From: Deltaproteobacteria bacterium
GTDB lineage: Bacteria; Desulfobacterota; Syntrophia; Syntrophales; UBA6807
Reading direction: 5' to 3'
Length of the DNA: 44,930 nt
NCBI GenBank assembly: GCA_016935565.1
Contig: JAFGQS010000105.1
Coordinates: forward strand, 1 to 44,930
How positions within the stretch are numbered: the first letter of the stretch is position 1; each line of letters starts with the position of its first letter. The notes below the pieces were generated by a model. That model saw nothing but the letters and a program-made list of their open reading frames with translations. It ran no database searches and was not told where the DNA came from. Shown piece by piece: positions 23,568-42,486 of this stretch. The translations under genes were made by a program, and so were the position numbers.

Positions 23568-24893
23568 ATGAGAGAAGTTGATATGATTATATCGAAAGGC
23601 AGAATTCTTCTATTAGACGATAACGACTCAATCATCAAAGACGGATCGATTGCCATCGATGGTGATTCCATCGCCGCAGTGGGAGAATCAGTGGATATTG
23701 AATCACAATACACGGGACGCAGGAAAATAGACGCGTCAGGCTGTCTGGTCATGCCCGGACTCATCAACTGTCATACCCATGCCGCTATGACCTGTTTCAG
23801 GGGAATAGCAGATGACATGGAACTCATGGACTGGCTCAATAATTACATTTTCCCCGCAGAAGCAAAAAATGTCGATCCGGATCTTGCCTACTGGGGGAGT
23901 CTTCTCGCCTGTGCAGAAATGATCAAATCGGTGACAACCACATTCTGTGATATGTATATCTTCGAAGATGAGACGGCAAGGGCTGCAAAAGAAGCTGGAA
24001 TACGATGCCTCCTCGGAGAGGTTCTATTCGACTTTCCGTCACCAAATGTTAAAACACCGTCGGAAGGCCTGGAATATACCCGTATGCTCATTGAAAAGTG
24101 GGCCGATGATCCGCTAGTCAATATCCTTGTCGAGCCGCATGCACTCTATACCTGCTCCCCTACCCTTCTTAAAGACGCCAAGGCATTGGCCGATCAATAC
24201 AATGTTCCCGTTGCAACGCATCTTCTTGAAAACAGGGGCGAACAGGAACAATTGCAGAAACTATTCGGTGTTAAAGCGACTCACTTTCTGAAAGATATCG
24301 GCTATCTTGATGAACGTTTCTTTGCATTTCATTGTGTCTGCATGGACGATGAAGACATAAAGATTTTTGCCGATCACGGATGTAAGGTCGTTCACAATCC
24401 GGAAAGCAATATGAAGCTTGCATCAGGTGTTGCACCCATCTCCAGTATGATTAAACGGGGTGTCGTGGTAGGACTCGGAACGGACGGATGCGCAAGCAAC
24501 AATAATCTCGACATGTTACAGGAAATGGATACGGCGGCGAAACTTGAGAAAGTCGAGCGTCTCGATCCGACGGTCATGTCTGCGCGAACGGTAATACGAA
24601 TGGCAACCTGTAACGGAGCAAAAGTCCTCGGCATGGAGAACCATGTCGGCTCACTGAAGGCCAGCATGAAAGCGGATATCATTATACTCGATCTGAATAA
24701 ACCTCATCTGACGCCCCTGTACAATGAGTATTCCCATCTCGCGTATGCCGTTAACGGCTCCGATGTGGATACCGCCATTATTAACGGTACGGTTGTCATG
24801 GAAAATAGAAAACTCACGACTATTGACGAAAATGAGGCAATGGCACAGGTACGGAAAATAGCTGAACGCATAAAAAAGAGTCTGGAAGAATGA
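23568..24893 (+). CDS. amidohydrolase, MTA/SAH deaminase family (copy 1)
   Basis: Metal-dependent TIM-barrel amidohydrolase of 441 residues, related to 5'-methylthioadenosine/S-adenosylhomocysteine deaminase and the triazine hydrolases (AtzB/TrzN). Visible ligands are H69 and H71 (NCHTH), H218, H255 (FAFHCVCMDD) and D306 ([11 protein letters not shown]); H191 (VEPHALYTCS) is the substrate-side His. The usual HLAET after beta-strand 5 is THLLEN here, keeping Glu (E221) but losing Ala and Thr. Start ATG has AAGGAG 11 nt upstream. It forms an operon with a close paralogue 3 bp downstream. The substrate is probably a purine nucleoside or related aminated ring, but this is not settled. Confidence 0.9.
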   Translation: MREVDMIISKGRILLLDDNDSIIKDGSIAIDGDSIAAVGESVDIESQYTGRRKIDASGCLVMPGLINCHTHAAMTCFRGIADDMELMDWLNNYIFPAEAKNVDPDLAYWGSLLACAEMIKSVTTTFCDMYIFEDETARAAKEAGIRCLLGEVLFDFPSPNVKTPSEGLEYTRMLIEKWADDPLVNILVEPHALYTCSPTLLKDAKALADQYNVPVATHLLENRGEQEQLQKLFGVKATHFLKDIGYLDERFFAFHCVCMDDEDIKIFADHGCKVVHNPESNMKLASGVAPISSMIKRGVVVGLGTDGCASNNNLDMLQEMDTAAKLEKVERLDPTVMSARTVIRMATCNGAKVLGMENHVGSLKASMKADIIILDLNKPHLTPLYNEYSHLAYAVNGSDVDTAIINGTVVMENRKLTTIDENEAMAQVRKIAERIKKSLEE

Positions 24894-24896
24894 ATC

Positions 24897-26231
24897 ATGA
24901 CTGAAGAACTCGACATCCTTATCACCGGGGGTACGGTACTGACCATGTCGGACACGTTTGATGTCATCGAGAATCCCGCCATTGGAATCAAAGACGGTAC
25001 AATCCGCTTTATCAAAACGGTTGACAACTTACTCACGCATCAATATACCGCCCGAGAAATTCTTGACGCATCGCACTCGGTTATTATGCCGGGATTGATT
25101 AATACACACACCCATCTACCCATGGTCTGTTTCAGGGGACTTGCTGACGATCTTCCACTCATGGAATGGCTGAACAATTACATCTTCCCTGCAGAAGCAA
25201 AATATGTCAACAGAGACATGGTTTACTACGGTTCCATGCTTGCCATTGCCGAGATGGTTCTATCGGGAACTACAACCTTCTGCGATGGTTATTTTTACGA
25301 AAGCAGTGTTGCCCTTGCCGCCATCGATACGGGGATGAGGGCTATGCCCTGCCAGGGTTTTATCGATTTCCCCACATCGGATAATTCCGACCCCTCAAAA
25401 AATGCACGGATTGGCGAAGCGTTTATTGAAAAATGGGCCGGTGTTTCACCGTTGATTTCTCCGGCATTTTTTTGCCATTCGCCGTACACCTGTTCTCCGG
25501 ATACGCTCTCAGGCATCAAAAAAATAGCAAGGACTGCCGGAATATTATACTTTATCCATCTGGCAGAAACTCGTGACGAAATAACGACCATACAGGACAA
25601 ATACGGTAACACGCCGGTCCGCCACCTCTATGATCTCGGTGTCCTTGACGATAAAACGGTCGGCGTTCACTGTAACTGGGTCGATGATGAAGAGATACAG
25701 ATCCTCGCCGATTGCGGTACGAAGGTATCTCATAATCCTGAAAGCTCAATGAAGCTTGCGGCCGGGGTCGCACCGATCCCCCGGATGATGGAACGGGGAA
25801 TCACCGTGGGACTAGGAACGGACGGCTGTGCGAGTAACAACGATCTCGACCTGCTGGCTGAAATGGATACAACGGCAAAGATTCACAAGGTCACGTCCAT
25901 GGACCCGACGGTCATGGATGCACAAACGGTTGTGAAAATGGCAACCCGCGACGGCGCTAAAGTCCTGGGACTTGAAGACAGAATCGGCTCAATCGAGGTC
26001 GGCAAATGTGCGGACATCATCATCCTCGACATGAATAAACCCCACCTGACACCTCTCTACAATCATTATTCGCACCTCGTTTATGCCGCATCCGGTTATG
26101 ATGTAACAACAGTCATTATCGACGGGAAAATCGTCATGCGGAATCGAGATCTTGTCACCATCGATGTTGAAGATGTCATGGAGCAGGTACGAAAGATTGG
26201 TGAGAACATCCGGAAAGATCGATCTCCCTGA
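24897..26231 (+). CDS. amidohydrolase, MTA/SAH deaminase family (copy 2)
   Basis: 444-residue paralogue of the preceding gene, sharing long blocks ([10 protein letters not shown], HNPESxMKLAxGVAPI, [11 protein letters not shown], [17 protein letters not shown]). Metal ligands are H71, H73, H221, H258 and D309, with E224 in the canonical HLAET motif and H194 in [10 protein letters not shown]. This copy therefore looks like the standard deaminase and copy 1 like the diverged one. ATG follows the stop of copy 1 by three bases, so translation is likely coupled. The gene converges on the pilus locus with only 13 bp between. Confidence 0.9.
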
Positions 26232-26244
26232 GCAAGACAAAGCT

Positions 26245-28494
26245 TCATTCCTGAACAGGCGGCAGAATGCCCGACCTGCTGCCTGATACGGCTTCCGCCT
26301 GAATGGCAAAATCATCGAAGTAAACCGATGTAGATGTATTACCGAACGTATGAAGAGCAATCTCAGGCTGATCGAAGGTGCCGCTCTCCGGAGTTGTTAG
26401 TGCACCGGTTCGTACGATTGCATCGGGCTCAACGGTAGAAATCTCAGCAGAAATACCTGTATTGAAACCAGTCCATTGCACAAGCGTCATATAGTCATTA
26501 TCCGCAGACAATTCACTAATATTATCCACGGGCCAGTGAACAGCCTGTCCGCTATCCGTAATACGGGGATTGCTTCCCCGTGTATTATCCAGCTGATTAT
26601 CATTAAACGGTCCGCCTACGGGATGTTCGTCGACATCACCATAATAGACCCGTATGAAATTTGTCTTTGTCCATGGATCTGATGGTGCCACCGCTACTCT
26701 GGCACGGGTAATACCATAAATTTTTAGTTCATCATTAAGAAGGATTGACATTCCGTCTTCAAGTTCCACATTTGACAGTGTCAGGGTTCCGGCCGCGCTA
26801 TTAACAGCCCAGTTATCAGCCGTAAGAATAGGGGTTCCATTGACCCGCGCGGTTCCAACTTGTGTCGCCCCACGCATAATGGTGATCATATCACCGTAGA
26901 GAAAGGTCGAGGGCCCTCCTCCTTTAAATTCCAGCGGATAAGCCTCGGTAAGGCGAACCTGGAGATTCGACCATTCCGTTAGACGAAGCTTTTCCGACTC
27001 ACCGGGATCCGGAGCAAAAACGATATAATCGTTCGCCGTCAGTATCTTATACGCCAGCCACGCGTAAACGCCATCTTTTTTCTGCCAGAGAACAATGGCG
27101 GGTTTTGAATAACGGAAGCGCGGGTTAGGAAAGGCCTTAGGATCAGTTTCCAAATTTCCATCAAATAAAGCTGAAATAGGAACAATATTATTTTCGATTC
27201 CATCTACATCTATGCCGTTAAAGACATTAAGCCATGTATCGTCATTATATGAATACCGCTGTTTTGCCCGTATATACGAAATGCCGTAATTTTCACTTCC
27301 CGTCTCTCTGAAGCTCATACCCGCCATATAATACGGTTGATTGTCGACCCTGATCTTAACCTGCAGATCGTAACCAAGGAGACAGCCGGACCCCTCCCAG
27401 ATATCGTTCAGGTTTGCAATCGTGTTGTCCCAATCGAAATAAATCCGGCTCCACACACCGCCTGAAGGCCCAACAGGTTCGGTGGAAGTCACATGGAGTG
27501 CCCCACCTGAAATCTCATGACTACCGACCTCTCCGGATGCGCCTGAAAATGAACCCGGCAATTCACTCCCCTCAAAGCGTTCGAGAACTTCTACTTTCTC
27601 CGTCGGCATCGTTTCGGGAATCGGGATATGATAGGTAACCTCTCGTTTTGTCTCCAGGAGGCTGTCCGGTTCCACAATACCGGTCGATGTCATTTTAATG
27701 AATTTGTCCAATACGATATCGGTACTTGCACCGATATCAATACTGAAAATACCTCCCGGATTGTTCGCCGAAGCAATGCCTTCAAGAAGAGACCCGTTCC
27801 TTCTTTTATATGTCCAGTAGCTCCATTTTGTGTGAGACTCATAGATCCTGAAACTGCCATTGAGTGCAGGAAAAGCATTTGCGGAACCTGTTGAGGTCTC
27901 AAGATTGATAGTGTTTGAATCATTACTCACTGTTTGTGGTCCGTCAGGATGACTTACGGACAAAACCGTCGTCCCACTATCAATAGACGGCCAATTACCG
28001 CTCGCATTCGTAAAGGCAACCTCGTCATTACTTCTTGCAGCGTTACTGTACTGATAAACCACATTTTCAATCTTCAACCATCCCGTGGTCAGTATCATAC
28101 CCGATGGAAAACCGCCGGATACCTTGGTGTTCAGGATTGGTGTCGCTCCACCGGGATTTGCTGTGGTTTTATAATAATAAGGATAAATACCGATGTGAAA
28201 TTTTCCGTCATCACCTGAGAGAGTATAATCCTTGTTGTGTATGGACTCCAGCTTAGCATCCTTTGCACTTTCACTTATGTTTCCAATTTCCCCCATGGCG
28301 TATCGATAACCCGACTCGGCAAGGTAATAAGCCTTCATGGTATTGTTTCCCATAATCTGACTCATTAAGGTCGTTGAAAAGAATGAAAACATGGCAGCAC
28401 CGAGAACTGATAAAACGATCATGGTTATGATCAACCCGAGCAGAACGGTACCGTTCTGTCCTGCATTACTTTTATAATAATCGCTTCCGATCAT
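26245..28494 (-). CDS. MshP/MshQ-like pilus protein with large extracellular domain
   Basis: 749 residues. The N-terminus has a PilX/MshP-like prepilin segment (about 15-45: GTVLLGLIITMIVLSVLGAAM) followed by KAYYLAESGYRYAMGEIG, a typical minor-pilin pattern. The remaining 650 or so residues are a beta-rich extracellular region ending in STSVYFDDFAIQAEA, as in LamG/concanavalin-like domains of MshQ-type adhesins. In Vibrio, MshP and MshQ are separate genes at this place, so this may be a fusion of the two. It is the last gene of the pilus operon. The likely role is pilus-tip adhesion, inferred from context. Confidence 0.75.
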   Translation of the reverse strand: MIGSDYYKSNAGQNGTVLLGLIITMIVLSVLGAAMFSFFSTTLMSQIMGNNTMKAYYLAESGYRYAMGEIGNISESAKDAKLESIHNKDYTLSGDDGKFHIGIYPYYYKTTANPGGATPILNTKVSGGFPSGMILTTGWLKIENVVYQYSNAARSNDEVAFTNASGNWPSIDSGTTVLSVSHPDGPQTVSNDSNTINLETSTGSANAFPALNGSFRIYESHTKWSYWTYKRRNGSLLEGIASANNPGGIFSIDIGASTDIVLDKFIKMTSTGIVEPDSLLETKREVTYHIPIPETMPTEKVEVLERFEGSELPGSFSGASGEVGSHEISGGALHVTSTEPVGPSGGVWSRIYFDWDNTIANLNDIWEGSGCLLGYDLQVKIRVDNQPYYMAGMSFRETGSENYGISYIRAKQRYSYNDDTWLNVFNGIDVDGIENNIVPISALFDGNLETDPKAFPNPRFRYSKPAIVLWQKKDGVYAWLAYKILTANDYIVFAPDPGESEKLRLTEWSNLQVRLTEAYPLEFKGGGPSTFLYGDMITIMRGATQVGTARVNGTPILTADNWAVNSAAGTLTLSNVELEDGMSILLNDELKIYGITRARVAVAPSDPWTKTNFIRVYYGDVDEHPVGGPFNDNQLDNTRGSNPRITDSGQAVHWPVDNISELSADNDYMTLVQWTGFNTGISAEISTVEPDAIVRTGALTTPESGTFDQPEIALHTFGNTSTSVYFDDFAIQAEAVSGSRSGILPPVQE

Positions 28495-28506
28495 TACTGA
28501 GATCCT

Positions 28507-29016
28507 TTAGTCTTTATTGTTCCTCGGAGTTATCCGTGTCGCAAACGTAACACTCAGGCCACCTTCAGAGCGTTCAATGTGCAGCTCGATTCGTATTGTC
28601 GACAGGTCGCGAATATCATCCGTCCCGATGACCCATGGCTCCTGCCCTTTATAATAGGTTAGTTGAAATAGTCCTACACGATCTACAAGCATGTCGCCAC
28701 CGGATGGGTTTTCACCTGAGACAATGTTGATAGTGTCATCGGGATCACTGAAATATAATGTGGTTGTCGTATCGTCCAGTTTCCGATACGTAACTCGTGA
28801 CTGTTCCGCCGATGTCACATCGGCAAGTTCCATCAGTTCCCTGTTTATACGGGTAAGGGCCATCTGTGCTTTCTGGGTGATTGAAACATTATCGGTAGCG
28901 AAGAGATACCCCTTAACTCCCGTCACAATTGCCATACCTGAAACGGTTGCTACAACGGCTACAATAAGAAGAACAGCAATAATCTCAATAAGGGTAAAAC
29001 CTTTCTGTTTTGCCAT
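28507..29016 (-). CDS. type IV prepilin-like protein (MshO-like position)
   Basis: 169-residue minor pilin. The prepilin peptidase site KG-FTLIEI follows a five-residue basic leader (MAKQKG). The hydrophobic helix IAVLLIVAVVATVSGMAIV is followed by a GspJ/MshO-type head with AQMALTRINRELMELAD. It lies 12 bp before the MshP/Q-like gene. The role is assembly or initiation of the MSHA-type pilus. Confidence 0.85.
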   Translation of the reverse strand: MAKQKGFTLIEIIAVLLIVAVVATVSGMAIVTGVKGYLFATDNVSITQKAQMALTRINRELMELADVTSAEQSRVTYRKLDDTTTTLYFSDPDDTINIVSGENPSGGDMLVDRVGLFQLTYYKGQEPWVIGTDDIRDLSTIRIELHIERSEGGLSVTFATRITPRNNKD

Positions 29017-29042
29017 GTTTTTTTCCTGTTCCGAACAACGAC

Positions 29043-29498
29043 CTATTTGGTAAATAGTGATGTCAATCTCTCATCGCTTGATGATACGGTCACCTTGAGA
29101 ATTGCATAACCACCGGACCCTCCATCATGAAATTCCTCGTAGTCTCCGTCTCCGTCACCATCGTTGAATATGATGTAATCGTTATATTCAACCGTGTATG
29201 AACCGTAATCACCTCCCACCACTTCAGTCCCCGCATTACCGATACGGCCTTTCAGCGTACCTAAGGGAGTTGGATTTCCATACCGCAGGACGTCGTAATC
29301 TGCGGTTATCCTCTCCATAACCTCTTTGACGACAAATTGATCCTGAACCCTGAGGAGCGGTTCCACACTGCCCGTCAGGTTCGTTCCCATAATCTGGAGA
29401 AACATTGAACCGAGAATAGCCGCTACGATAATCGTAACGATCATTTCTATCAATGTAAAACCCGCCTGACGACAGACCACCGTTTGATGTGCTTTCAT
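29043..29498 (-). CDS. type IV prepilin-like protein (MshD-like position)
   Basis: 151-residue minor pilin with leader MKAHQTVVCRQAG and cleavage before FTLIEMIVTII; Ala rather than Lys/Arg precedes the Gly. The head is short and acidic, with YNDYIIFNDGDGDGDYEEF, which may bind calcium. The gene overlaps the previous pilin gene by 4 bp, so translation is coupled. Confidence 0.85.
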   Translation of the reverse strand: MKAHQTVVCRQAGFTLIEMIVTIIVAAILGSMFLQIMGTNLTGSVEPLLRVQDQFVVKEVMERITADYDVLRYGNPTPLGTLKGRIGNAGTEVVGGDYGSYTVEYNDYIIFNDGDGDGDYEEFHDGGSGGYAILKVTVSSSDERLTSLFTK

Positions 29499-30010
29499 GG
29501 TATAAAACCCGTATTATTTCTTATGCGAATGTCTACAGTGTTTCCGCTTTGTAAAAGTGAAATAGTCCTCCATCCACCGACTTCATTCTGTAATGTTTGG
29601 GCTTTTGCATCAACATAAGGTTTTCCCCACGTGTCAAAAGAAACCGTCATATCCTCATTGATCTTTATCCCGTCAGAAAAGTACACGGGACCGGAATTAT
29701 TCGGATCGTTCCCCGGCAAACCCATATTCGTCTTTGTATCACTGGCTGGATCATACTTGAATAGCTGGTAATAGCTTGTTTTCACCCCGACAAAGAGATC
29801 GATCCCCCAGATTAAATTGGTATTCATGGCTCGCACCTGGGCATACCGGAGACGGCTTTTTGTCACTTCCATTTCTGATGTCAGCTCATACTCCGAGGGT
29901 GAATAGACACTGGACATAACAATCGCGGCTCCGACAACACAAATCAGCAGCAGAACCACAATAATTTCAATTAAAGTAAAGCCACGCTTATTCGTCCGGA
30001 AATCCGCCAT
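29495..30010 (-). CDS. type IV prepilin-like protein (GspH/MshC-like)
   Basis: 171-residue minor pilin. Leader MADFRTNKRG, cleavage before FTLIEI, and hydrophobic helix VVLLLICVVGAAIVMSS. The head has the GspH/FimT pattern (SRLRYAQVRAMNTNLIWGIDL) and ends with a beta segment. It sits where MshC is found in Vibrio and overlaps the next gene by 4 bp. Confidence 0.85.
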   Translation of the reverse strand: MADFRTNKRGFTLIEIIVVLLLICVVGAAIVMSSVYSPSEYELTSEMEVTKSRLRYAQVRAMNTNLIWGIDLFVGVKTSYYQLFKYDPASDTKTNMGLPGNDPNNSGPVYFSDGIKINEDMTVSFDTWGKPYVDAKAQTLQNEVGGWRTISLLQSGNTVDIRIRNNTGFIP

Positions 30011-30189
30011 GTCTTCAATCTTTCTCTTTTACTTGTCTTCTATACTGTATTGTGAATATCTTCGATCAGTACGAAATTGTTTGCCATGACAATCAGACCA
30101 TATCTGAATGAGCCATATCAAAACAGGTTCGGTAATTCTGATATTTTTTCATTGAAATATCAAGGAAAATACTCATGAGGAACAGAACA

Positions 30190-30483
30190 TTAGGAAAAAT
30201 CGGCAAGGCTCTCCAATATTGGAAATTATAGATTGTCAAAAATCCGAGAAATGTTATCGCTCACCTTGCATTACTGGATTCATACTGCACAATTGATAAA
30301 ATGGATCGCTATGATGGAATGATTAGATGTCTCGATCTTATGAGGGAAAATCAAAGATTAACTGATTTAATTCAGAATAATATAAAGAATATTGATGCAT
30401 TAGTTTATATGCCGAACACAAAACATCTACATTCAGTTTTGAAGGGCAATGACGGTCACACTGCGAATGGTACTAATATGTAA
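30190..30483 (+). pseudogene. possible remnant of a TPR protein gene
   Basis: In one plus-strand frame the sequence reads KIGKALQYWKL, a TAG stop, then IVKNPRNVIAHLALLDSYCTI and further helical sequence to a stop at 30483. The pattern (ALxYWKxAL-x-NPRNVxAHLALxDSY) is that of a tetratricopeptide repeat. The open part from ATG 30301 has no ribosome site and runs head-on into the end of a pilin gene. It seems to be a decayed, oppositely oriented gene within the pilin operon. The identity rests on one repeat only. Confidence 0.35.
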
Positions 30484-30847
30484 ATTGTATAATGACCCAC
30501 CTGCCCGGTGTATCCCCTGTCGGTGGCGTTCTTGAAACAACGGCCTTTCTTTTAAAGCTGTAAGAACTGATCAGCGTATTGTCGTTACTTACTATAAAAC
30601 CCTGTAAATTTGATTTGATATCATTAACGGTATAATTAACTTTATCAGATTTCCATCTTCCCCAGGCCAGGTTCTCTCTCGCATTCAATTCGACAACAGC
30701 TGTTTTCAGCGAACTTTCAGCCGCATCTTCCGGCATATGAAAAAATTTGGGGATTGCTACAGCTATGAGGATACCAAGAATAATAAAAACTACAACGATT
30801 TCAAGGAGGGTAAAGCCTTTTTGATCGCTTAGAATACCATCAACCAC
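30473..30847 (-). CDS. type IV pilin-like protein (MshA/MshB type)
   Basis: 124-residue pilin. The leader ends QKG, followed by FTLLEIVVVF with Glu5. The helix goes on as IPKFFHMPEDAAESSLKTAVVELNAREN. This closely matches the first pilin gene of the operon (30976-31425: VPKYFELQDDAAKAALKRAVAELTARDN), so the two are paralogues. The head ends with a short hydrophobic strand (RWVIIQFTY). Its start is about 130 bp after the stop of the first pilin gene. Confidence 0.88.
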   Translation of the reverse strand: MVDGILSDQKGFTLLEIVVVFIILGILIAVAIPKFFHMPEDAAESSLKTAVVELNARENLAWGRWKSDKVNYTVNDIKSNLQGFIVSNDNTLISSYSFKRKAVVSRTPPTGDTPGRWVIIQFTY

Positions 30848-30975: not shown

Positions 30976-31425
30976 TTACGGCAATGCGGCTCCAGCCTTG
31001 GTAAAGAACGTCATACTTGAACTGTCCCAGATACCCGGTGAATTTTCTGTTGCCGCCGTTCTGTTTACAAGCGCGTATATCGTAAAATTAGTTGAGGTGA
31101 GCTTATTGCCGGTTGCGGCCATACCATCCACCGTAAAATCACCAAATGACCCATCAGCGCTTATAATTTTAGTCATGTCATTCAGATCGGCAACAGAGTC
31201 GTAATTTGGATCTGTTGTCCCTGACTTATATTTTGCCCAGGCCAGATTATCCCTTGCAGTCAACTCGGCAACCGCACGTTTCAGTGCTGCCTTTGCGGCA
31301 TCATCTTGTAATTCAAAGTATTTCGGTACAGCGACCGCCGCTAGAATACCAAGAATAATTAAAACTGCGATAATTTCGATCAGCGTGAAACCCTTTTGAT
31401 TTCCTAACGGATTCTTTTTTTTCAT
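30976..31425 (-). CDS. major type IV pilin-like protein (MshA/MshB type)
   Basis: 149-residue pilin and first gene behind a sigma-54 promoter. Leader MKKKNPLGNQKG is cleaved before FTLIEIIAVLIILGILAAVA, with the conserved Glu5. The head contains TxTDPN-type loops and no cysteine pair. A strong ribosome site (GGGAGGAAGATA) precedes the ATG. Strong promoter and ribosome site, and position, point to the main structural subunit, with the next pilin as a minor or alternative subunit. Confidence 0.9.
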   Translation of the reverse strand: MKKKNPLGNQKGFTLIEIIAVLIILGILAAVAVPKYFELQDDAAKAALKRAVAELTARDNLAWAKYKSGTTDPNYDSVADLNDMTKIISADGSFGDFTVDGMAATGNKLTSTNFTIYALVNRTAATENSPGIWDSSSMTFFTKAGAALP

Positions 31426-31500
31426 TATCTTCCTCCCTGGTAAATCCGCACGCAGACATTACTGCACTTGCATGATACGACTGTTTTGAAAGAATATTAC

Positions 31501-31516
31501 TGCACTAGTTATGCCA
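31501..31516 (-). promoter_or_regulatory. sigma-54 (-24/-12) promoter of the pilin operon
   Basis: Minus strand TGGCAT, five bases (AACTA), GTGCA. Both the GG at -24 and the GC at -12 are present with exact spacing. The predicted start of transcription is near 31490, giving a leader of about 65 nt before the pilin ATG at 31425. A sigma-54 activator gene ends about 195 bp upstream. Confidence 0.8.
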
Positions 31517-31612
31517 GCCTTTCTGTTTTAAAATACATTTGTAATTATACTGAAATTACAAGAACTTATATTTATAAAGGCAACAGATCGATTTTCTTGG
31601 CTTTCTTCTTTT

Positions 31613-31658
31613 CTCCATTATTTGTAGGAATATGTTTTAAATTCTACAAATAATGGAG
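31613..31658. promoter_or_regulatory. perfect 15-bp inverted repeat, likely enhancer site for a sigma-54 activator
   Basis: CTCCATTATTTGTAG (31613-31627) and its exact complement CTACAAATAATGGAG (31644-31658) flank a 16-bp spacer. The centre is about 145 bp upstream of the predicted start of transcription of the pilin operon, the normal place for an upstream activator sequence. A further half-site-like TTGTAGGAAT occurs near 31685 on the minus strand. There is no T tract, so a terminator is less likely. Confidence 0.7.
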
Positions 31659-31711
31659 TGATATGGCTATTTTATCAATTATTCCTACAATATATTGACA
31701 TGGGCCCACAA

Positions 31712-33139: not shown

Positions 33140-34375
33140 CTAAAATCCTTTCCTGACGATCTTCGTTAAATCCCACATGGGAAGGAATATTGACAATGCA
33201 AAAAAACCTACAACTGCAGCCAGTCCGATAATTAATATCGGACCAATGGTTGCAGACAATCGTTTAACGGCATATTCAACCTCATCATCATAATGAATCG
33301 ATATTTCACGGAGCATCTCTTCAAGCCTTCCTGATTCTTCACCAATAGCAATCATATCCACCACCATGGGAGGAAAATACCGCGCCGATTTGAGAGGGCC
33401 TGAGATACCCCGACCTTCCTCAATAAGATCTCTCACCCTGACAAACTCCCTTGTTATTGCCTGATTGCCGATTGTACCACCCAGTATAGCGATGGAATCT
33501 AAAACATGAACGCCGCTTGATTGTAATATACTAAATACACTGGCGAAACGCGACATAATCGCCTTTTGAAATAAAGGTCCCATGATGGGAACATTGAGAA
33601 TCAATGAATCCCATAGATATCTGCCGAGTTCAGTTTTTTTATAATAGAGTCTCAGCGCAATAAATGCGATGACAATGATGGCAATTATCCATTGCCAGTA
33701 ATTCTGTAACAGATGATACAGGAGCAAGCTCACACGGGTGGGAAGAGGAAGCTCAAGGCCGGAACGAGAAAATATACTGACAAATTTTGGTATAACAAAA
33801 GTAAGGAGAACAAAAAACGCTATCATAAGGGCGACCAGAACTATGATGGGATACTGGAGAGCAGCTTTTATATCGGATTTAACCTTGTGTTCATGTTCCA
33901 GGATATAGACCAGTCTCCCAAGTACATCGGGAAGTGTGCCGCTCTGCTCACCCGCTCTGATCATATTTGTATATAAAGGAGAAAATATTCTCGGATGTTT
34001 TGTAAATGCATCATAGAGAGTCAGACCTTCCCGTATATTCAATTTCATAGAGACAATGGCATTTTTCAGCTTCTTGTTTTCCGTCTGATTTTCAAGTGTT
34101 CCCAGTAACTGGAGTATCGGAATACCTGCAATAAGCATTGTTCTGAACTGTTTCGTAAAAATAATTAACTGTTCTATCTTTACCGGCGTCAACATGGTTT
34201 CGATATTTCTTAACCATCCTGTAAATAATTCGGTACCTTCCTCTGCAACTTTCGATGGAATATATCCCTGGCCAACCAATATGTTTTCGACCATTTCAAT
34301 TGAATCGGCCCTGATTTCTCCGGACACACTTGCACCACTTGAGTCAATCGCCCTATAAATGAAGTTCTTCACCAT
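33140..34375 (-). CDS. mshG: MSHA-type pilus inner-membrane platform protein (PilC/GspF family)
   Basis: 411-residue polytopic protein with two repeated T2SSF domains (about 65-190 and 265-390). The FTKQFRTMLIAGIPILQLL and SRFASVFSILQSSGVHVLDSI segments are the family hallmarks. Membrane helices lie near 165-190, 215-240 and 375-400. It forms the cytoplasmic-membrane platform on which pilins are assembled by the ATPase MshE. It lies 15 bp after the ATPase gene. Confidence 0.92.
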   Translation of the reverse strand: MVKNFIYRAIDSSGASVSGEIRADSIEMVENILVGQGYIPSKVAEEGTELFTGWLRNIETMLTPVKIEQLIIFTKQFRTMLIAGIPILQLLGTLENQTENKKLKNAIVSMKLNIREGLTLYDAFTKHPRIFSPLYTNMIRAGEQSGTLPDVLGRLVYILEHEHKVKSDIKAALQYPIIVLVALMIAFFVLLTFVIPKFVSIFSRSGLELPLPTRVSLLLYHLLQNYWQWIIAIIVIAFIALRLYYKKTELGRYLWDSLILNVPIMGPLFQKAIMSRFASVFSILQSSGVHVLDSIAILGGTIGNQAITREFVRVRDLIEEGRGISGPLKSARYFPPMVVDMIAIGEESGRLEEMLREISIHYDDEVEYAVKRLSATIGPILIIGLAAVVGFFALSIFLPMWDLTKIVRKGF

Positions 34376-34390
34376 TTCTATTATCCTCGA

Positions 34391-36100
34391 CTAGACCATG
34401 ACTGTTGATGCTGCTTCTTCCAGAGTCGTTATTCCCTGGACTACTTTGTGTGCCGCATCATCTCTGAGTGTTCTCAGTATTCCCGCCTGTTTTGCTGCTC
34501 GTGTTATCTCCTGGGCTGTACTTCCTTTAATAATCATCTCATGAATCATATCATCATTGATGAGTATTTCGAAAATGCCTGTTCGCCCTCGGTAACCGGT
34601 ATGCATACACTGGGGACAACCCTTGCTCTTACGGAAATTGGGATTATCGATTTTATCAAGGCCCCAAGCCCTCAGGGCAGCTTCGGGAGGTTCATATGGC
34701 TCTGTACAATACGGACAGTTTGTCCGGACTAAACGCTGGGCAAACGACACCAGCAAGACCGACGCCACGAGGAACGGTTCTATTTTCATATCCAAGAGTC
34801 TCGCTACCGCTCCGGCGGCATCATTCGTATGGACAGTACTCAACACCCTGTGCCCGGTCAGAGCTGCCTGTGTAGCAATACTCGCCGTCTCCGCGTCTCT
34901 GATCTCACCCACCATGATGACATCCGGATCCTGGCGTAATATCGATCGTAATCCACCGGCAAATGTCATGCCTGCCTTTCGGTTCAGTTGAATCTGACGA
35001 ATCTTAGGAACCCTGTATTCAACGGGGTCTTCCAGGGTAATAATGTTAATGTCAGGTCGATTGATTTCTTTCAGTATCGAATAGAGACTGGTACTTTTAC
35101 CACTACCCGTCGGACCGGTACTGAGAATCAACCCATAGGGTCTGGTAATAATAGACTGTATCTTTTCGCTATCACCATCGGACATACCGAGCCTATCAAG
35201 TGAATATACACCGGAACTCATATCCAGAAGACGTAACACAAGGTTTTCACCATAAATGGTTGGAAGAGATGAAACCCTGATATTAATTTCCCTGTTTTCA
35301 ACTTTTACGGTAAATCGTCCGTCTTGAGGAATCCGTGATATGGCGATATCCATATTTGAAAGGATTTTGATTCTCGAAATAATCGGCAGTATTGTAGACT
35401 TTGGCGGAGATGGAACTTCGTGCAGTCTGCCGTCTATCCTGAACCGAATTTGAACTGCATGAGATTCCGGACTGATATGAATATCACTCGCACCCTCTCT
35501 GACTGCCTGCGTAATAATAGAATTAACCAGACGAACAATCGGCGGTTCCGCAGCTTGATCCTGAAGCGAACTCACCTGAATGTCCTCCATGCCTAAATAA
35601 CTCGCCGCTTCAGTCTCTACGTTGATCTCAATATCATCTAACTTTTCAATTTCCTCCATAAAACCGGCCTGCATGCCGTATGTTAATCTGACAAGCTGGT
35701 TCATCTCCCGTTCAGAACAAACAACCGGTTCTACTTCCATGTTGGTAATAAATTCAACCGTGTCAAGGGCATTAATGTCCATCGGATCACACATGGCAAC
35801 TGTCAGGAGATTTGTTTTTTTCTTTAAAGGGATCACTTTGTTTTTCTGGCAGATATCAAGAGGTATCAAACCGACTAAATCAGGATCTGTGGGATAGTTA
35901 TCGGGTCTGTATTTATCAATATTTAACTGTTTGCTGAGAACATCGATAAGCTGTACTTCTTGCACCATGCCTTGCTGGATCAAATACTGTCCCAGCCTCA
36001 TCCCGGCTCTCTTATGGGCAACTAACGCCTGACTCAGCTGATCCTCTTTTAATAACCCTCCTTCAATAAGGATCTCTCCCAATTTCTTTCTTGGTCTCAA
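34391..36100 (-). CDS. mshE: pilus extension ATPase with MshEN c-di-GMP-binding domain
   Basis: 569-residue hexameric secretion ATPase that powers pilus extension. The N-terminus has two tandem 24-residue motifs. The second (35-58) matches RLGxxLxxxGx6LxxxLxxQ exactly; the first (6-29) has Lys for Arg and His for Gln. This motif binds cyclic di-GMP in Vibrio MshE. Further on are Walker A GPTGSGKS (329-336), the Asp and His boxes, Walker B region (392-401) and a zinc-binding tetracysteine (C462, C465, C495, C498). The gene overlaps the upstream ATPase gene by 4 bp. Confidence 0.93.
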   Translation of the reverse strand: MRPRKKLGEILIEGGLLKEDQLSQALVAHKRAGMRLGQYLIQQGMVQEVQLIDVLSKQLNIDKYRPDNYPTDPDLVGLIPLDICQKNKVIPLKKKTNLLTVAMCDPMDINALDTVEFITNMEVEPVVCSEREMNQLVRLTYGMQAGFMEEIEKLDDIEINVETEAASYLGMEDIQVSSLQDQAAEPPIVRLVNSIITQAVREGASDIHISPESHAVQIRFRIDGRLHEVPSPPKSTILPIISRIKILSNMDIAISRIPQDGRFTVKVENREINIRVSSLPTIYGENLVLRLLDMSSGVYSLDRLGMSDGDSEKIQSIITRPYGLILSTGPTGSGKSTSLYSILKEINRPDINIITLEDPVEYRVPKIRQIQLNRKAGMTFAGGLRSILRQDPDVIMVGEIRDAETASIATQAALTGHRVLSTVHTNDAAGAVARLLDMKIEPFLVASVLLVSFAQRLVRTNCPYCTEPYEPPEAALRAWGLDKIDNPNFRKSKGCPQCMHTGYRGRTGIFEILINDDMIHEMIIKGSTAQEITRAAKQAGILRTLRDDAAHKVVQGITTLEEAASTVMV

Positions 36101-37827
36101 TAGTGTTCTCCTCTTTTAGATGTTCTGAGGTTCGTAAAAAAGACGGTATCATTCAACCAGTCCGATCGAATCTTCGCGTCTTTGAAAACCGGGGTTAGTG
36201 ATGTAAATGCACGCCTGGCCGACGCTTCCTTCATAAAACAAGCTCTCAGAAGTATCGAAAAACGCAGGCCGTCTTTACTGTTCCAGTTTGGAACGAGCCG
36301 GACGGAGGGTGTTTCCCCGGCACATTGTTGCAGAAACTTATGTGCCTCACCAAGAGTGCCTTTTTCGCTAACCTGTACCCAATATTTACAGGGTCGTAGA
36401 TCAGCTTTGATCGGAATAGCAGGAAATCTGATTATATACCCTTTTTCCACATGATTGAGATCTTCAATATGGGGGTTAGCTTTTTTCACACGTCGCAAAT
36501 AGTCGGGCTGATAATAACCATATATACTCGCTATCATCTTTGACACGATCCATCCTTCTTCCACTCGCAATTGTCCCAATAAGACAGGACGCTCAATAGC
36601 CTGAGGTGTCACATCCGATGCTGGAGCAGGGGCTGCATCTGCCTCCCGGACACCCGTTGACTGAATAACATGTACTTTAATTGAGCTGCCTTCTCCTGTC
36701 TTGTTTTCCTGTTCATCAATGATCTGTTTATCAACCAATTCGGCGGATTGGCTCTTTTGAGGTTCGCTGACATGAGTGTTTTCCATATTCTTCTTTGGCT
36801 GCATGCTCTGACTGATAACCGTTGTCCCTTCATAATGAGGGGGGTCTTTCTCCTCGATAATAGGAGAATCTAATACGTGCAACGCTCCCGAATGAATCAT
36901 GTGTTTTATAGTATCGTATCCAAGGCCCAGTATCAGTAATATTGCAATTAAAAAAAAGGAATACACTGTGATTTTTTTCCATGGCACAATTATCTTTGTT
37001 TCTGACATTGTTCTTCGAGCACAGGCATGAACCAACGACCAATGTACTTTTGTCCGATTCTGAATGATAACGGTCAGCATAATCTGATGGCAGAGTATGA
37101 CGATTTTCCGTGGATATCCTCCGGTGGTGCCGTATATTGCCCGCATGGCAGGGTACGTAAAACGTAAGGGGGTTACGCCTGATTTACTCGCCTTCATTAT
37201 CCGGTATCGAATCATTGAGCGCATGTCATTAAAATTTAACGGCCCTAATTCATACAGGAAATTAATGCGATCGGCAAAGTTACTCCGCTCCCGTAACATA
37301 TTTTGAAACTCTCTTTGAGCAAAAATCACAATTTGCAGTAATTTATATTCATTCGTTTCGTAATTGAGAAATTCCCTCAATATCTCCAGGCATATATCGG
37401 GGATTTTCTGCCCTTCATCAATGATCAGTACTACGGTATTGTCTTTAACAACTCCCTGTTCAAAAATGTAGTTTTTTATAACTTCTTTCAACTGCCACTC
37501 GGTTGCGGAACTATCGGTAATCTTGTCTATACCGAACATCTTGAAGAGTTCAGTTAAAAATTCGGTGGGAGTGCTAAAAGCAGGATCAAGAAGAAGAAAC
37601 GTTTTAATATTGTTGAACTCATCAAATTTGTTTATCAACTGGCGGCAGAGTGTTGTCTTACCCGTCCCTACATCTCCGATTACAACGTTCAATCCGCGTC
37701 GCAGACGTATTGCCAGCTCAAGATTTTGAAGACATTGTACATGCTGCAGAGATTCGTAGAAAAACTCAGGTTCGGGAGAGTTTGAAAAGGGTTCCTTGGT
37801 AAGATTTAATATCTTAAAATATTCCAT
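36097..37827 (-). CDS. mshM: MshM/ExeA-like AAA ATPase with LysM-like and SPOR-like C-terminus
   Basis: 576 residues from ATG 37827 (a TTG at 37857 lacks a ribosome site and would add ten). The cytoplasmic AAA domain begins MEYFKILNLTKEPFSNSPEP, typical of ExeA/MshM, with Walker A GDVGTGKT (51-58) and Walker B VVLIIDEGQ (132-140). One membrane helix (286-304) is followed by a Ser/Gln/Glu-rich linker, a LysM-like segment (SKMIASIYGYYQPDYLRRVKKANP) and a SPOR-like end (PCKYWVQVSEKGTLGEA). ExeA proteins use peptidoglycan binding to help insert the secretin; the periplasmic part here fits that task. It is longer than Vibrio MshM. Confidence 0.88.
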   Translation of the reverse strand: MEYFKILNLTKEPFSNSPEPEFFYESLQHVQCLQNLELAIRLRRGLNVVIGDVGTGKTTLCRQLINKFDEFNNIKTFLLLDPAFSTPTEFLTELFKMFGIDKITDSSATEWQLKEVIKNYIFEQGVVKDNTVVLIIDEGQKIPDICLEILREFLNYETNEYKLLQIVIFAQREFQNMLRERSNFADRINFLYELGPLNFNDMRSMIRYRIMKASKSGVTPLRFTYPAMRAIYGTTGGYPRKIVILCHQIMLTVIIQNRTKVHWSLVHACARRTMSETKIIVPWKKITVYSFFLIAILLILGLGYDTIKHMIHSGALHVLDSPIIEEKDPPHYEGTTVISQSMQPKKNMENTHVSEPQKSQSAELVDKQIIDEQENKTGEGSSIKVHVIQSTGVREADAAPAPASDVTPQAIERPVLLGQLRVEEGWIVSKMIASIYGYYQPDYLRRVKKANPHIEDLNHVEKGYIIRFPAIPIKADLRPCKYWVQVSEKGTLGEAHKFLQQCAGETPSVRLVPNWNSKDGLRFSILLRACFMKEASARRAFTSLTPVFKDAKIRSDWLNDTVFFTNLRTSKRGEHY

Positions 37828-37899
37828 TTTTACTACCAGAAGATAGATGGAAGGCAATGTAATTCAGTACGGCTCATAACCCGTTTTTTATCCTGACTC

Positions 37900-39522
37900 T
37901 TAATCCTCGACTCCTGATTCTTGATGTTTCTTATCTTCTCTCTTTTGTTCAGGAACAACCGCTTCTTCCTCTGCTGCAGCTGTTTTCAGAATATGGGGAG
38001 TAATAAATATAAGTACTTCTTCCATATCTTCAGCTTTATAGTCCCCCTTGAAGAGCCATCCCAGGACGGGAACATCTTTGAATCCCGGGATACCGCTGTT
38101 TTTGTCTTGACTCTTCTTTTTCGTAAGACCGGAAATGACAATGGTTTCACCGTCCCTTACGATCAGTGTCGTATCCGTCTGCTTCCTGAAAATTGCAGGA
38201 TTTCCTTGAACGGTTCGAGATTCGTTAATTTCATCCTTTTTGACGTTGATTTTCATTTTTAAATGTATCCCGTCGATGACATGAGGTGTAATTTCCAGTC
38301 TCAACACAACATCTTCAAACTTGACTTCCCGATTGCCATCCTTGTCGATGGATACGTAAGGCACCTTTTCTCCGTTTTCAGTAAAAGCGGCCTGGTTGTC
38401 AAGAGTCGTTATGGATGGACTGGAAAGGATGTTCAACTTTCCGTCGTTTTGAAGAGCTGTCAACTGCATATCGAGGATACTACCACCGATTTTCCCGAAC
38501 ATCAGTCCGAGTGATCCGGCCCCGCCGGCGGCACTTATCGACGCCGCTGACGCCGGAAAATTGACACCGTAACCATGTCCGCTTACACCGCTTGATCCGT
38601 ATGTTGGTGAATACCCCCCCGCTGACGCAGGGTTTGTTCCCACCGTTCCCCCCGTTCCACCGGGAGTAATAAAAAATTGATTACTATTGACCGTATTGCT
38701 GTACATGCCTCCCCATTGAATACCCAGACTTCGTGCCGTGTCCTTTGTCGTTTCAATAATATTAGCCTGAATGAGAATCTGGGGGATTGGTTTGTCAATT
38801 TTTTCCAGCATGGGAATTATTTTTCTGAGATCTTCCCTCGTTGCTTGAATAATAAGAGAATTCGTGTGATCGCTTACCTTCATCGATCCATAAGGATTGC
38901 CTTTATCGTCTTTGGTGAGAAATCCCGACAGGTTTTCGCCGAGTTTCTTGGGATCGGCAAAATCAATGGGCACGACCATGGGCACGAGTGGAGCTTTCTC
39001 TTTCTTTTTATCCTGGATAAGTTTCAACTGCATCTCCTTCTCCAGATCTTCAACCGTCGCAATCCGTATGATATTACCCTCCCATACATACGTCAATGCC
39101 TGGGAACTCAGGATACTGCGAAATGCTTTATCCCACGGTACATTTTTAAAATCGACGCTTACACGACCTTGAACCTCTGATTTGACCAGTATATTCTCAT
39201 TTGCTGCTCGCGCCAGGGCCTGTAGGACCATTTTAACATCAACATTGCGCATCTTAAAGTTGACGTTGTCCGTGGGAAGGGATCGTTCCTCCATTGGTAT
39301 ACCGTCTAATTTATACCCGGGCTCTGGTGGTATCTTTATTTTACGTATCTTTGCTGCCGGCGAATTTCCTTTTGATTCCTGTGCCATGATTTTCCATTTT
39401 TCGAAGAATGGGTCTTTTTTTGTCTTTTTTGTCCCGGCACATCCGAAAAAAAGCACACCCACCACAACAAGGGCTACCAAATGGATTATTTTATTTTGCA
39501 TATTCATAACTTTCAAAACCAT
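37900..39522 (-). CDS. mshL: MSHA-type secretin (outer-membrane pore)
   Basis: 540 residues. A lipoprotein signal peptide ends LFFGC (Cys 28). An STN/N0 domain (NVDVKMVLQALARAANENI) and an N1 domain follow. The secretin core has a Gly-rich gate region, VPYVSIDKDGN, DTTLIVRDGETIVISGL and the signature VPVLGWLFKGDYKAEDMEEVLIFITPHIL read in pieces. It builds the gated channel through which the pilus passes. Start could also be one of the ATGs 5-7 codons downstream. It is flanked by the PilP-like gene and the ExeA-like ATPase, as in MSHA loci. Confidence 0.92.
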   Translation of the reverse strand: MVLKVMNMQNKIIHLVALVVVGVLFFGCAGTKKTKKDPFFEKWKIMAQESKGNSPAAKIRKIKIPPEPGYKLDGIPMEERSLPTDNVNFKMRNVDVKMVLQALARAANENILVKSEVQGRVSVDFKNVPWDKAFRSILSSQALTYVWEGNIIRIATVEDLEKEMQLKLIQDKKKEKAPLVPMVVPIDFADPKKLGENLSGFLTKDDKGNPYGSMKVSDHTNSLIIQATREDLRKIIPMLEKIDKPIPQILIQANIIETTKDTARSLGIQWGGMYSNTVNSNQFFITPGGTGGTVGTNPASAGGYSPTYGSSGVSGHGYGVNFPASAASISAAGGAGSLGLMFGKIGGSILDMQLTALQNDGKLNILSSPSITTLDNQAAFTENGEKVPYVSIDKDGNREVKFEDVVLRLEITPHVIDGIHLKMKINVKKDEINESRTVQGNPAIFRKQTDTTLIVRDGETIVISGLTKKKSQDKNSGIPGFKDVPVLGWLFKGDYKAEDMEEVLIFITPHILKTAAAEEEAVVPEQKREDKKHQESGVED

Positions 39523-39537
39523 CCCCCATGTAAAAAG

Positions 39538-40047
39538 TTACTCTGCTAAGAACGGAACGGTAATCTTCCCTCCACGCCTTGTATCAACAACAGTCACACT
39601 GGATGGCGTTATGTGTTTCACTCTATATCCATTCATTTCCAATTCGTCACCAATTTGATAGTCCATCCCATTTATGACAGCAATCTTTTTTTTACCAACC
39701 TCAAGATAACCGCTATAGATGAGTCTGATTTCCTTTATTCTCCCGATTGACACGTTCGCGTTTTTGGAATGTAAAGCGTTTGATGCAGAAAAGGGATCAT
39801 TCTTCCATTCTTTCTCCGCACTCACCGCCACATATGTTTCTGCCTTTATAGTCTCATTTTCCTGTAAAACATCGGAAATTTCTTTGACGAGCTTATTCAT
39901 GTCAACCGTTTTTGCAACAGGAGTAAAACTGTGGACAACAGGAATGCTTTTTGATTTTTTCGCCGGCGACACAATAAAAAAATCATAAGCACCATACAGA
40001 ACTGTGAGAAATGCGATGAAAACGATTATTTTTTCTCTTCGTGACAT
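39538..40047 (-). CDS. PilP/MshK-like periplasmic pilus protein
   Basis: 169 residues with one N-terminal membrane helix (about 7-26, IIVFIAFLTVLYGAYDFFIV) and a periplasmic part ending in a small beta domain (YSGYLEVGKKKIAVING, GDELEMNGYRVKHITPSSVTV). This fold and its position between PilO-like and secretin genes match PilP, GspC and MshK, which link the inner-membrane complex to the secretin. It is assigned mostly by context and fold pattern. Confidence 0.75.
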   Translation of the reverse strand: MSRREKIIVFIAFLTVLYGAYDFFIVSPAKKSKSIPVVHSFTPVAKTVDMNKLVKEISDVLQENETIKAETYVAVSAEKEWKNDPFSASNALHSKNANVSIGRIKEIRLIYSGYLEVGKKKIAVINGMDYQIGDELEMNGYRVKHITPSSVTVVDTRRGGKITVPFLAE

Positions 40048-40061
40048 ATGAGACCTGCTCC

Positions 40062-40616
40062 TCAGGATACTGCAAACCAGAGCTTCAGTTTACATTCTTT
40101 ATCAGTCATTTTCTGCTGAATGTCTATTTCCTCTATATGATCAATATAGGGAACTTTCCCCAGTTCGATCAGAAAATTGCGCACATCGAAAAAACTTCCC
40201 CTCACCGTCGCATAAATTAAGAGAAAATCCTTTCTTGTTGCAAGCGTTGTAAGATCCGGATTTACCATTACAGCTTGCATTCCGGCTTTTCGCGCTATTC
40301 CTTTGATGAGGGGCGGAATGAGATCGATATTGTTTGGAGGAAGTGATTTCCTGATCGGAAGGGATAATTTATCCGGTACCGAAGCTTCACTCTTTTGCAC
40401 CAGCTTCATATAGAGAGGCAAAAGCACCTTTTGTTTCTCTGCGTTCTTATACATACCGGCAATCTCTTTATCTAACGTGCCCAATGACTGGTAATAAGGA
40501 TACACGATTACAAGAAGAAAGATCACAACGATAAATATGCTCACGCTGAGATAAATTAACGTTCTAACCGGCAGTATGTTATACCATTTTTTTTCCATAC
40601 CGTATATCCTAAGCAA
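40062..40616 (-). CDS. PilO/MshJ-like inner-membrane pilus protein
   Basis: 184 residues (an alternative start MEKKWYN lies six codons in). One membrane helix (about 20-42), a coiled-coil (SLGTLDKEIAGMYKNAEKQ) and a ferredoxin-like domain ending DHIEEIDIQQKMTDKECKL. This is the PilO/GspM layout. The gene overlaps the PilM-PilN-like gene by 8 bp. It forms, with the PilN-like part, the alignment subcomplex of the pilus machine. Confidence 0.8.
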   Translation of the reverse strand: MLRIYGMEKKWYNILPVRTLIYLSVSIFIVVIFLLVIVYPYYQSLGTLDKEIAGMYKNAEKQKVLLPLYMKLVQKSEASVPDKLSLPIRKSLPPNNIDLIPPLIKGIARKAGMQAVMVNPDLTTLATRKDFLLIYATVRGSFFDVRNFLIELGKVPYIDHIEEIDIQQKMTDKECKLKLWFAVS

Positions 40617-42486
40617 ACGTAACTATGAGATAAAAGCGAAGGACATCGCCGCTTCCCGAGGATTCTATGGTGCTTTTGTTAAGTTTTGTCTGACTGAACA
40701 TGGGCGAACTTTGTAATTTAAGAATGTACCCCACCAAATAATCTTCAAGTGAATTGAGATCGCCTGAAACAATACCTTCAAGTATCAACCTGCCACCTCC
40801 TCTTTTGCTCTCGTCGCTTAAAGCAGCAGAATCCATTCGGACAGTTACATGAAGAAGGCGAATGTTTGATGGCGTAAGTGCAGACAGCTCACCGATTGCG
40901 GCGAGAGCCATGTATCTCCTGCTGTATTCTTTTACATATTTCCTGTCTTGTTCTACCTTATTTACAAAAAGAGGGATGACATTTTCATCGACTTGAACGG
41001 TTTGCTTCCATTTTTGTTCAAGTTGAGCAAGCGCGGCCTTTTTGTTGTTGGCCATGTTTGCCAGCAAAAAGAGACCGCCGACACAGAGAGACATGATAAT
41101 GAGCAAGCTTACAATTATTGCGTGATTACTCTTCGTAATATTCAACTCTTTTTTCTTATCCTTATAGGTGAAGAGGAGATTGGGAGTTCGTGACGTGGCC
41201 GAGAGCGCAACGCCGAGGGCAGGTCCAAAAGCCACCCTTTCAGAGAGAGAAAGCCCGGACGTTATTTTGTCGACAAAAGGATTTTCCGGTTTCAGGGGAT
41301 CCAGCACATCCCGTTGAATTCCAAGATCCTCTCCGATATAATCAATCACGGGGATATATATATTTGTTGCGGTGGAAGCATATATGGAACGTATTTTTTC
41401 GTTTCCAAGAGTAACAGTATAATATCGAAAGGTTCTGTCAATCTGCCTCACCAGTCGATCCATGGCCGGTTTAATCAATGTCTTTATGGCCTCTTCATCG
41501 AGGCCAAACCGTGTTCTTATTTCTCCGTCAATTTGCGAATCTGAACTGAGACCTGACATTAACTCTCTTGCCTCTTCGATTTTCATGAAAAGGTTATCCC
41601 TCATGTTATCAGGATGAAGAATCAGATCGTCGTGCGATTTTTCCGATACCGAAGCGGATATGCTTTCATTATATCCTTCCATAAGCTCCTGGATCATACT
41701 GTTCATCCCGGTCTTTATGCCCCGGGTCATGACGAGGCTACCCTTTGAGAATATATCAATACGTGACCATCCCCTCCCGATATAGAGGGTGGCCACTGTT
41801 TGATCAGAGGACAGCATCCATTTTGTTCTGAACAGATTCTGAATTCCAAACGGTACAATTGTCAGCCCATCCAATGGGTATCCAATGCCGGCAAAGAGAT
41901 CCTCTATTTCCCGAACCTCTTTTCTGGGGGCCGCGTAGACCATAGCAGCAATCTTCGTTACCCCGCTTTCAACAACGTCACCTTCCACCTCAAAATCAAA
42001 GACAAAGTCTTTTTCATCAAAGGAAATGTTCTTCCTTGCAGTCCAGTAAATAGCATTCTCTATCTGTTTTTTCGGAAGTTTTGGAATTCGAACGGACGCT
42101 ACTTCAACCCGGGCGGAAGACATATTAGCCCATAAATTAAATTTTTTTGCGGAACCACGAAACTCGGCAAGTTCGGACATCAAAAAGTTCGCAAATTCCT
42201 GTGTACCTTTCGGAGCGTCAGTTCTAAAAGGCACACTTCGGCACGCAAGAAGTTTCCATTGATTGTCGATCGTTTCAGCTACTTTAACAAATCGCAGTTC
42301 CCGGTAACCGATATCGACACCAATAGAAATCGCTTTACCGTTCTGAAATATCTTTGAAGATAGAAATTTCTCCGTTTTTATCAAAGGAGACAAATCCGAT
42401 GCTCCAATAAATTCGTCTGATGTTTTCTTATTGCGTATAACATCAAGTAATTTCTCTGTTGAAGATACTTCTTTCTCTAACGACAA
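40609..42486 (-). CDS. mshI: MshI-like protein: PilM-PilN fusion
   Basis: 625 residues. The N-terminal part (about 50-430) is a PilM/FtsA-like actin-fold domain (SIGVDIGYRELRFVKV; ATLYIGRGWSRIDIF; ASTATNIYIPVIDYIGEDLG). A membrane helix (456-477) leads to a PilN-like periplasmic part. In many type IV pili PilM and PilN are separate; here they are one chain, as in MshI-like proteins. The start is TTG at 42486, with AGAAGGGG about 8 nt upstream. It is the first gene of the assembly operon, with a 5' leader of some 200 nt if the -10 noted at 42710 is real. Confidence 0.85.
   Translation of the reverse strand: MSLEKEVSSTEKLLDVIRNKKTSDEFIGASDLSPLIKTEKFLSSKIFQNGKAISIGVDIGYRELRFVKVAETIDNQWKLLACRSVPFRTDAPKGTQEFANFLMSELAEFRGSAKKFNLWANMSSARVEVASVRIPKLPKKQIENAIYWTARKNISFDEKDFVFDFEVEGDVVESGVTKIAAMVYAAPRKEVREIEDLFAGIGYPLDGLTIVPFGIQNLFRTKWMLSSDQTVATLYIGRGWSRIDIFSKGSLVMTRGIKTGMNSMIQELMEGYNESISASVSEKSHDDLILHPDNMRDNLFMKIEEARELMSGLSSDSQIDGEIRTRFGLDEEAIKTLIKPAMDRLVRQIDRTFRYYTVTLGNEKIRSIYASTATNIYIPVIDYIGEDLGIQRDVLDPLKPENPFVDKITSGLSLSERVAFGPALGVALSATSRTPNLLFTYKDKKKELNITKSNHAIIVSLLIIMSLCVGGLFLLANMANNKKAALAQLEQKWKQTVQVDENVIPLFVNKVEQDRKYVKEYSRRYMALAAIGELSALTPSNIRLLHVTVRMDSAALSDESKRGGGRLILEGIVSGDLNSLEDYLVGYILKLQSSPMFSQTKLNKSTIESSGSGDVLRFYLIVTFA

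Follow-up and report, generated by a model that had tools for sequence, protein, structure and literature searches.

A predicted sigma-54 enhancer-promoter for pilin genes and its neighbouring activator in a member of the Syntrophales

Introduction

The 286-bp intergenic region between the gene of a sigma-54 activator and the first of a series of pilin genes carries a promoter-like -24/-12 element and a perfect inverted repeat, and raises the question of whether these two elements form a dedicated switch for the pilins and, if so, which protein operates it. A reading of the sequence alone had proposed a self-contained switch, in which the assembly genes and the activator form one unit and the pilins a second, activator-driven unit. 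The stretch of DNA analyzed here (the window, 44.9 kb) is the entire contig C94 of assembly G000 (3.06 Mb, 196 contigs), and its features are listed in Table 1. The pilus cluster has a gene order that we take to be MSHA-like. Assignment to the MSHA type by the secretin was rejected, as this protein scored 103.8 of 250.2 bits with the MshL model, below the curated cut-off, and it passes the PilQ subfamily model (326.3 of 284.35 bits). Inspection by eye revealed no sigma-54 promoter before the assembly operon. Beyond the pilus cluster, at 23568-26231, lie two tandem genes of 441 and 444 aa that, judged from sequence, are similar to each other and amidohydrolase-like.

Table 1. Positions of the regulatory elements and genes in the window (site centers relative to the expected transcription start)
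Feature	Position	Strand	Basis or remark
Sigma-54 -24/-12 promoter, TGGCAT-AACTA-GTGCA	31501..31516	-	Sequence and pattern conserved in orthologous loci
Predicted activator site, promoter-proximal, CTACAAATAATGGAG	31613..31627	-	Center ~-131; 18.0 bits, joint best match in the window
Predicted activator site, promoter-distal, CTCCATTATTTGTAG	31644..31658	-	Center ~-162; 18.0 bits, joint best match
Possible third site, weak, GTCAATATATTGTAG	31685..31699	-	Center ~-203; 6.0 bits
Sigma-54 activator, 473 aa	31712..33133	-	Pfam, hydropathy, HTH comparison
First pilin of downstream unit, GFTLIE prepilin motif	30976..31425	-	PF07963, TIGR02532
Further downstream genes, same strand	26245..30847	-	ORFs
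Prepilin-like genes	30473-30847, 29495-30010, 29043-29498, 28507-29016	-	PF07963
749-aa protein	26245-28494	-	ORF; no NCBIfam match
Assembly genes in the activator's unit	33140..42486	-	ORF list, gaps <45 bp; Pfam and NCBIfam
T2SSF	33140-34375	-	Assembly unit
MshE/GspE-like ATPase	34391-36100	-	Assembly unit
ExeA-like ATPase	36097-37857	-	Assembly unit
PilQ-type secretin	37900-39522	-	Assembly unit
Small genes	39538-40616	-	Assembly unit
PilM-like	40609-42486	-	Assembly unit

A Conserved Promoter Before the First Pilin

The -24/-12 element that the sequence-only reading had placed before the first pilin is indeed present on the minus strand with the exact GG-N10-GC spacing. This element, TGGCATAACTAGTGCA, differs from the consensus TGGCAC-N5-TTGCA at two positions, with 75 bp between its end and the ATG of the first pilin (31425), and transcription of the pilins would be expected to start near 31490, approximately 12 nt past the GC. 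The genome contains a single sigma-54 gene (rpoN). Conservation in close relatives, the absence of which had been named as a refuting outcome, was borne out for the promoter: of 51 orthologous loci, 37 have TGGCA-N8-GCW between the activator and the first pilin, within 350 bp upstream of the latter, compared with none for the reversed control and 0.2 expected from shuffling. The median distance from this pattern to the ATG is 81 bp; seven loci, all of family f6, place it at 306-312 bp. A strict match is absent in some loci (e.g., L127, L159, and L133), and degenerate forms may exist.

The window also contains a direct repeat, ATTACTGCACT (31458-31468 and 31496-31506), by which the -12 region is duplicated 38 bp downstream; the downstream copy falls in what would be the 5′ leader of the pilin mRNA.

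The Inverted Repeat as a Pair of 15-bp Sites

The perfect inverted repeat of the sequence-only reading was reproduced in both coordinates and distance: 15-bp arms separated by a 16-bp spacer lie between the activator stop codon (31712) and the promoter, centered approximately 145 bp upstream of the expected start. Among 4000 Markov simulations of the intergenic region, none gave perfect 15-bp arms and 0.3% gave arms of 12 bp or longer. The arms do not qualify as dispersed repeats, as near matches elsewhere in the genome are few and below the control.

Motif discovery from random seeds in 53 loci, from which the closest relatives of the window were excluded, yielded a 15-bp palindrome, CTACAATAATTGTAG (CTACAA-WWW-TTGTAG), with a log-likelihood of 386 compared with 41-51 for dinucleotide shuffles, and the result was repeated both with one locus per genus and with only the non-coding DNA after the activator stop. 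When the model was trained without the window's family, the two arms ranked first and second in the whole window, with the next match at 7.9 bits, and each arm corresponds to exactly one 15-bp site of the model. Thus, what is conserved is not the repeat itself; rather, each arm represents one predicted site, and the two sites are 31 bp apart. It is speculative to regard GTCAATATATTGTAG as a third activator site; a weak site at -204 in the relative L158 is similarly placed.

Pairs of sites recur among the relatives at an exact spacing of 21 bp in 23 loci and at 29-32 bp in eight, with approximately 0.2 expected per class. These spacings equal two or three helical turns, as expected if dimers were to bind on one face of the helix. 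A spacing of 30-31 bp is common to four of the five closest relatives. In L084 and L085, two copies of CAACAATATTTGTAG form a direct repeat with a spacing of 30 bp, and in L086 and L158 the two sites have diverged and are spaced 31 bp apart. The anticipated conservation of the inverted repeat therefore holds for the pair of 15-bp near-palindromic sites and fails for their orientation, which may be direct or inverted. The window itself, with sites at -131 and -162, has the layout of an upstream activating sequence, for which two or more dyads facing the same side of the helix are expected at roughly 80-200 bp upstream.

The placement of the sites relative to neighboring genes varies. The sites have moved along with the pilin in L148, L132, and the G140 locus (L003/L198), and in L087, where a displaced promoter lies 456 bp away from the activator stop, they are still located at -132 and -153. 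In L152 and L099, the site has remained at the end of the activator gene, approximately 390-460 bp from the promoter. No site of at least 13 bits was found in eight of 59 loci, several of which have no nearby pilin. In families f15, f6, and f16, the predicted site spans the stop codon of the activator (CTACAATAATTGTAG, CTACATAAAATGTAG, and CTACAAAAAATGTAG) in three registers relative to the stop (-1, 0, and -7). Neither the conserved bases past the stop nor the differing registers are explained by protein constraint alone. Loci with a predicted palindrome across the activator stop codon include L126, L130, L139, L089, and L094, among others.

The Activator and its Link to the Sites

The neighboring gene was confirmed to encode a sigma-54 activator with an intact GAFTGA loop (EKGAFTGATA) in a Sigma54_activat domain (PF00158, 242.6 bits). 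The C-terminus carries a Fis-type HTH (PF02954, above cut-off, residues 422-462) with KERSLWHRIKKY, and hydropathy reveals two hydrophobic segments in the first 100 residues, with predicted membrane helices at approximately 33-52 and 68-90. No match to Response_reg was found in the protein with Pfam. The activator is thus predicted to be a membrane-anchored one-component protein and not PilR. It is apparently undescribed; a search of the open-access literature for a pilus sigma-54 activator that is membrane-bound or of the MSHA type found none.

Among the order's 155 genomes, 60 (counting that of the window) encode an orthologue of the activator (E <= 1e-125), and in most of these loci the gene after the activator is a pilin. 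The recognition helix RSLWHR hardly varies among the orthologues, and none of the genome's other activators with a readable C-terminus showed it. The strict palindrome CTACAWWWWWTGTAG is present in 38 of 60 activator-positive and in five of 95 activator-negative genomes of the order (odds ratio 31), although the p-value is not to be taken literally because the genomes are related and the counts are not phylogenetically independent; the reversed palindrome, used as a control, shows no association (7/60 and 12/95). Outside the order by name, the locus of Salidesulfovibrio brasiliensis (L004), which was included among the motif-training loci, has kept the helix and pairs a 14.0-bit site with a weaker one at a spacing of 21 bp. 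More distant activators of other phyla were rejected as comparators, being without RSLWHR or without sites and pilins, and only L003 and L004 were informative. The co-occurrence of sites and activator and the conserved recognition helix point to the neighboring activator as the likely binder, short of proof.

A Second Predicted Target

The sole strict palindrome in assembly G000 lies on another contig (C79:3078-3092) and is accompanied by a second site 29 bp away (pair C79:3078-3121; L163, L224). The sigma-54 promoter that follows (C79:3322-3337) precedes a gene for a sugar transferase (PF02397) that belongs to an exopolysaccharide-type cluster. Sites scoring 18 bits or more, together with a sigma-54 promoter, are likewise present at the orthologues of this gene in G002, G003, and G004, and this arrangement is found in four activator-positive genomes of the family. 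In G001, a genome of the same family that is activator-negative at the threshold used, the sugar-transferase gene has neither sites nor promoter, and no site in five more distant homologues reaches 8 bits. The exopolysaccharide sugar-transferase gene therefore appears to be a second predicted target of the activator. Because its promoter appears to use the same sites, the term “self-contained” was slightly too strong for the proposed switch, whereas the module of activator, sites, promoter, and pilins is supported.

Further palindromes were noted elsewhere. Genomes of family f6 have one or two extra strict palindromes without a recognizable sigma-54 promoter nearby (G028:C3:453431 and G028:C4:375184), with counterparts in G010, G042, and G114-G116. 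In another family, a palindrome and a sigma-54 promoter, TGGCATATCTCTTGCT, lie before genes of small secreted-looking proteins (G019:C6:113340; L166), which may be an additional target.

Alternative Explanations

The -24/-12 match could have arisen by chance, with pilin transcription driven by a sigma-70 promoter or continuing from the upstream operon. In the genome, TGGCAYN6TGCW occurs 43 times and the reversed pattern 10 times; a match taken alone is weak evidence because approximately 10 of the 43 are expected by chance. The evidence for the promoter is nevertheless strong because the element is conserved in relatives, at matching positions in most orthologous loci, and sigma-70-like matches in the region are not above the shuffle level, so that a chance match seems extremely improbable. 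It is also conceivable that the sites serve another regulator, either a different enhancer-binding protein or a repressor, since the genome encodes approximately 24 full-length activator domains. However, the sites co-occur with the neighboring activator, whose HTH is conserved and differs from those of the readable paralogues, and the helix was seen to be altered in a single orthologue, L099 (RRSLVYR), whose site is weak (11.4 bits). Binding by another regulator is accordingly considered unlikely.

The inverted repeat might instead work as RNA, that is, as a terminator, an attenuator, or a 3′-end stabilizer of the assembly-activator transcript, given that it lies 53 bp past the activator stop and has a folding energy of -20 kcal/mol (z -7.7). 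An intrinsic terminator, consisting of a G+C-rich stem followed by a T-run, was rejected: the stem is A+T-rich, there is no T-run, and no terminator was called. Rfam gave only sub-threshold matches of the hairpin to animal microRNA models, which were attributed to chance. Moreover, the family relative L084 has direct repeats and no hairpin (z +0.7), L086 has no significant fold (z -0.85), and the 3′ end of the activator's coding sequence and the site overlap in other families. As relatives with direct repeats cannot form the hairpin, a terminator or other RNA role is not the conserved one, and it is highly unlikely to account for the repeat, although the hairpin may have a secondary RNA role limited to this species.

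Discussion

It is highly probable that the region is the enhancer-promoter of a dedicated sigma-54 switch for the pilins that is driven by the neighboring activator. In this model, the activator would be made from the end of the pilus-assembly operon, and its Fis-type HTH would bind the two near-palindromic sites, at approximately -131 and -162 on one helix face. Looping of the DNA would then bring the AAA+ domain to the sigma-54 RNA polymerase at TGGCATAACTAGTGCA, and the polymerase, once remodeled, would transcribe the pilin genes. The signal may enter via the membrane-spanning N-terminus of the activator. Binding, looping, activator dependence, and the signal are what we infer from the sequence.

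A sigma-54 pilA promoter is cited as mapped by 5′-RACE in PMC2725144, and PilA is regulated by PilS-PilR (PMC6058289). As in the PilS-PilR/pilA systems of Geobacter sulfurreducens and Pseudomonas aeruginosa, a Fis-type enhancer-binding protein and a sigma-54 promoter would drive the pilin here. Unlike PilR, the activator described here lacks a receiver domain, has two predicted membrane helices, and is encoded inside the assembly operon; the site predicted for it reads CTACAA-N3-TTGTAG. In the PEP-CTERM/PrsR regulon, motif 1 ends with TTTACA and its mean distance to the -24/-12 element downstream is 63 nt, and PrsR is a response regulator (PMC1569441). The two systems share a conserved upstream element with a -24/-12 promoter, the assignment of one activator by phylogenetic profile, and a link to exopolysaccharide loci; by contrast, the sites reported here form a different palindrome and are located at least ~100 bp upstream. 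Single-component enhancer-binding proteins of Desulfovibrio vulgaris mostly have regulons of one to four operons with cognate motifs, and sites within coding regions were anticipated in that reconstruction (PMC4641369). The small regulon with a cognate motif is a shared feature, whereas DVU2114, the only pili regulator there, is a two-component response regulator (PMC4641369).

The conserved promoter and sites, which recur in relatives and before the sugar-coat gene, indicate a real on-switch of an ordinary type, the parts of which were probably undescribed until now. The switch has a newly defined predicted operator sequence, a conserved second target, and an activator with predicted membrane anchoring. 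It is tempting to speculate, albeit tentatively and with some doubt, that the membrane-anchored activator directly senses the assembly machine or the pilin pool and co-activates the pilins and exopolysaccharide synthesis via phased palindromes. The position of these palindromes inside the activator stop codon in many relatives would make the activator gene and the enhancer inseparable.

Known members of the Syntrophales live in close contact with partner cells. For this largely uncultured, anaerobic order, the predicted operator sequence and a two-target regulon comprising the pilins and an exopolysaccharide sugar transferase are concrete and testable, and a kinase-free, membrane-anchored activator could couple pilus assembly to pilin supply in one protein.
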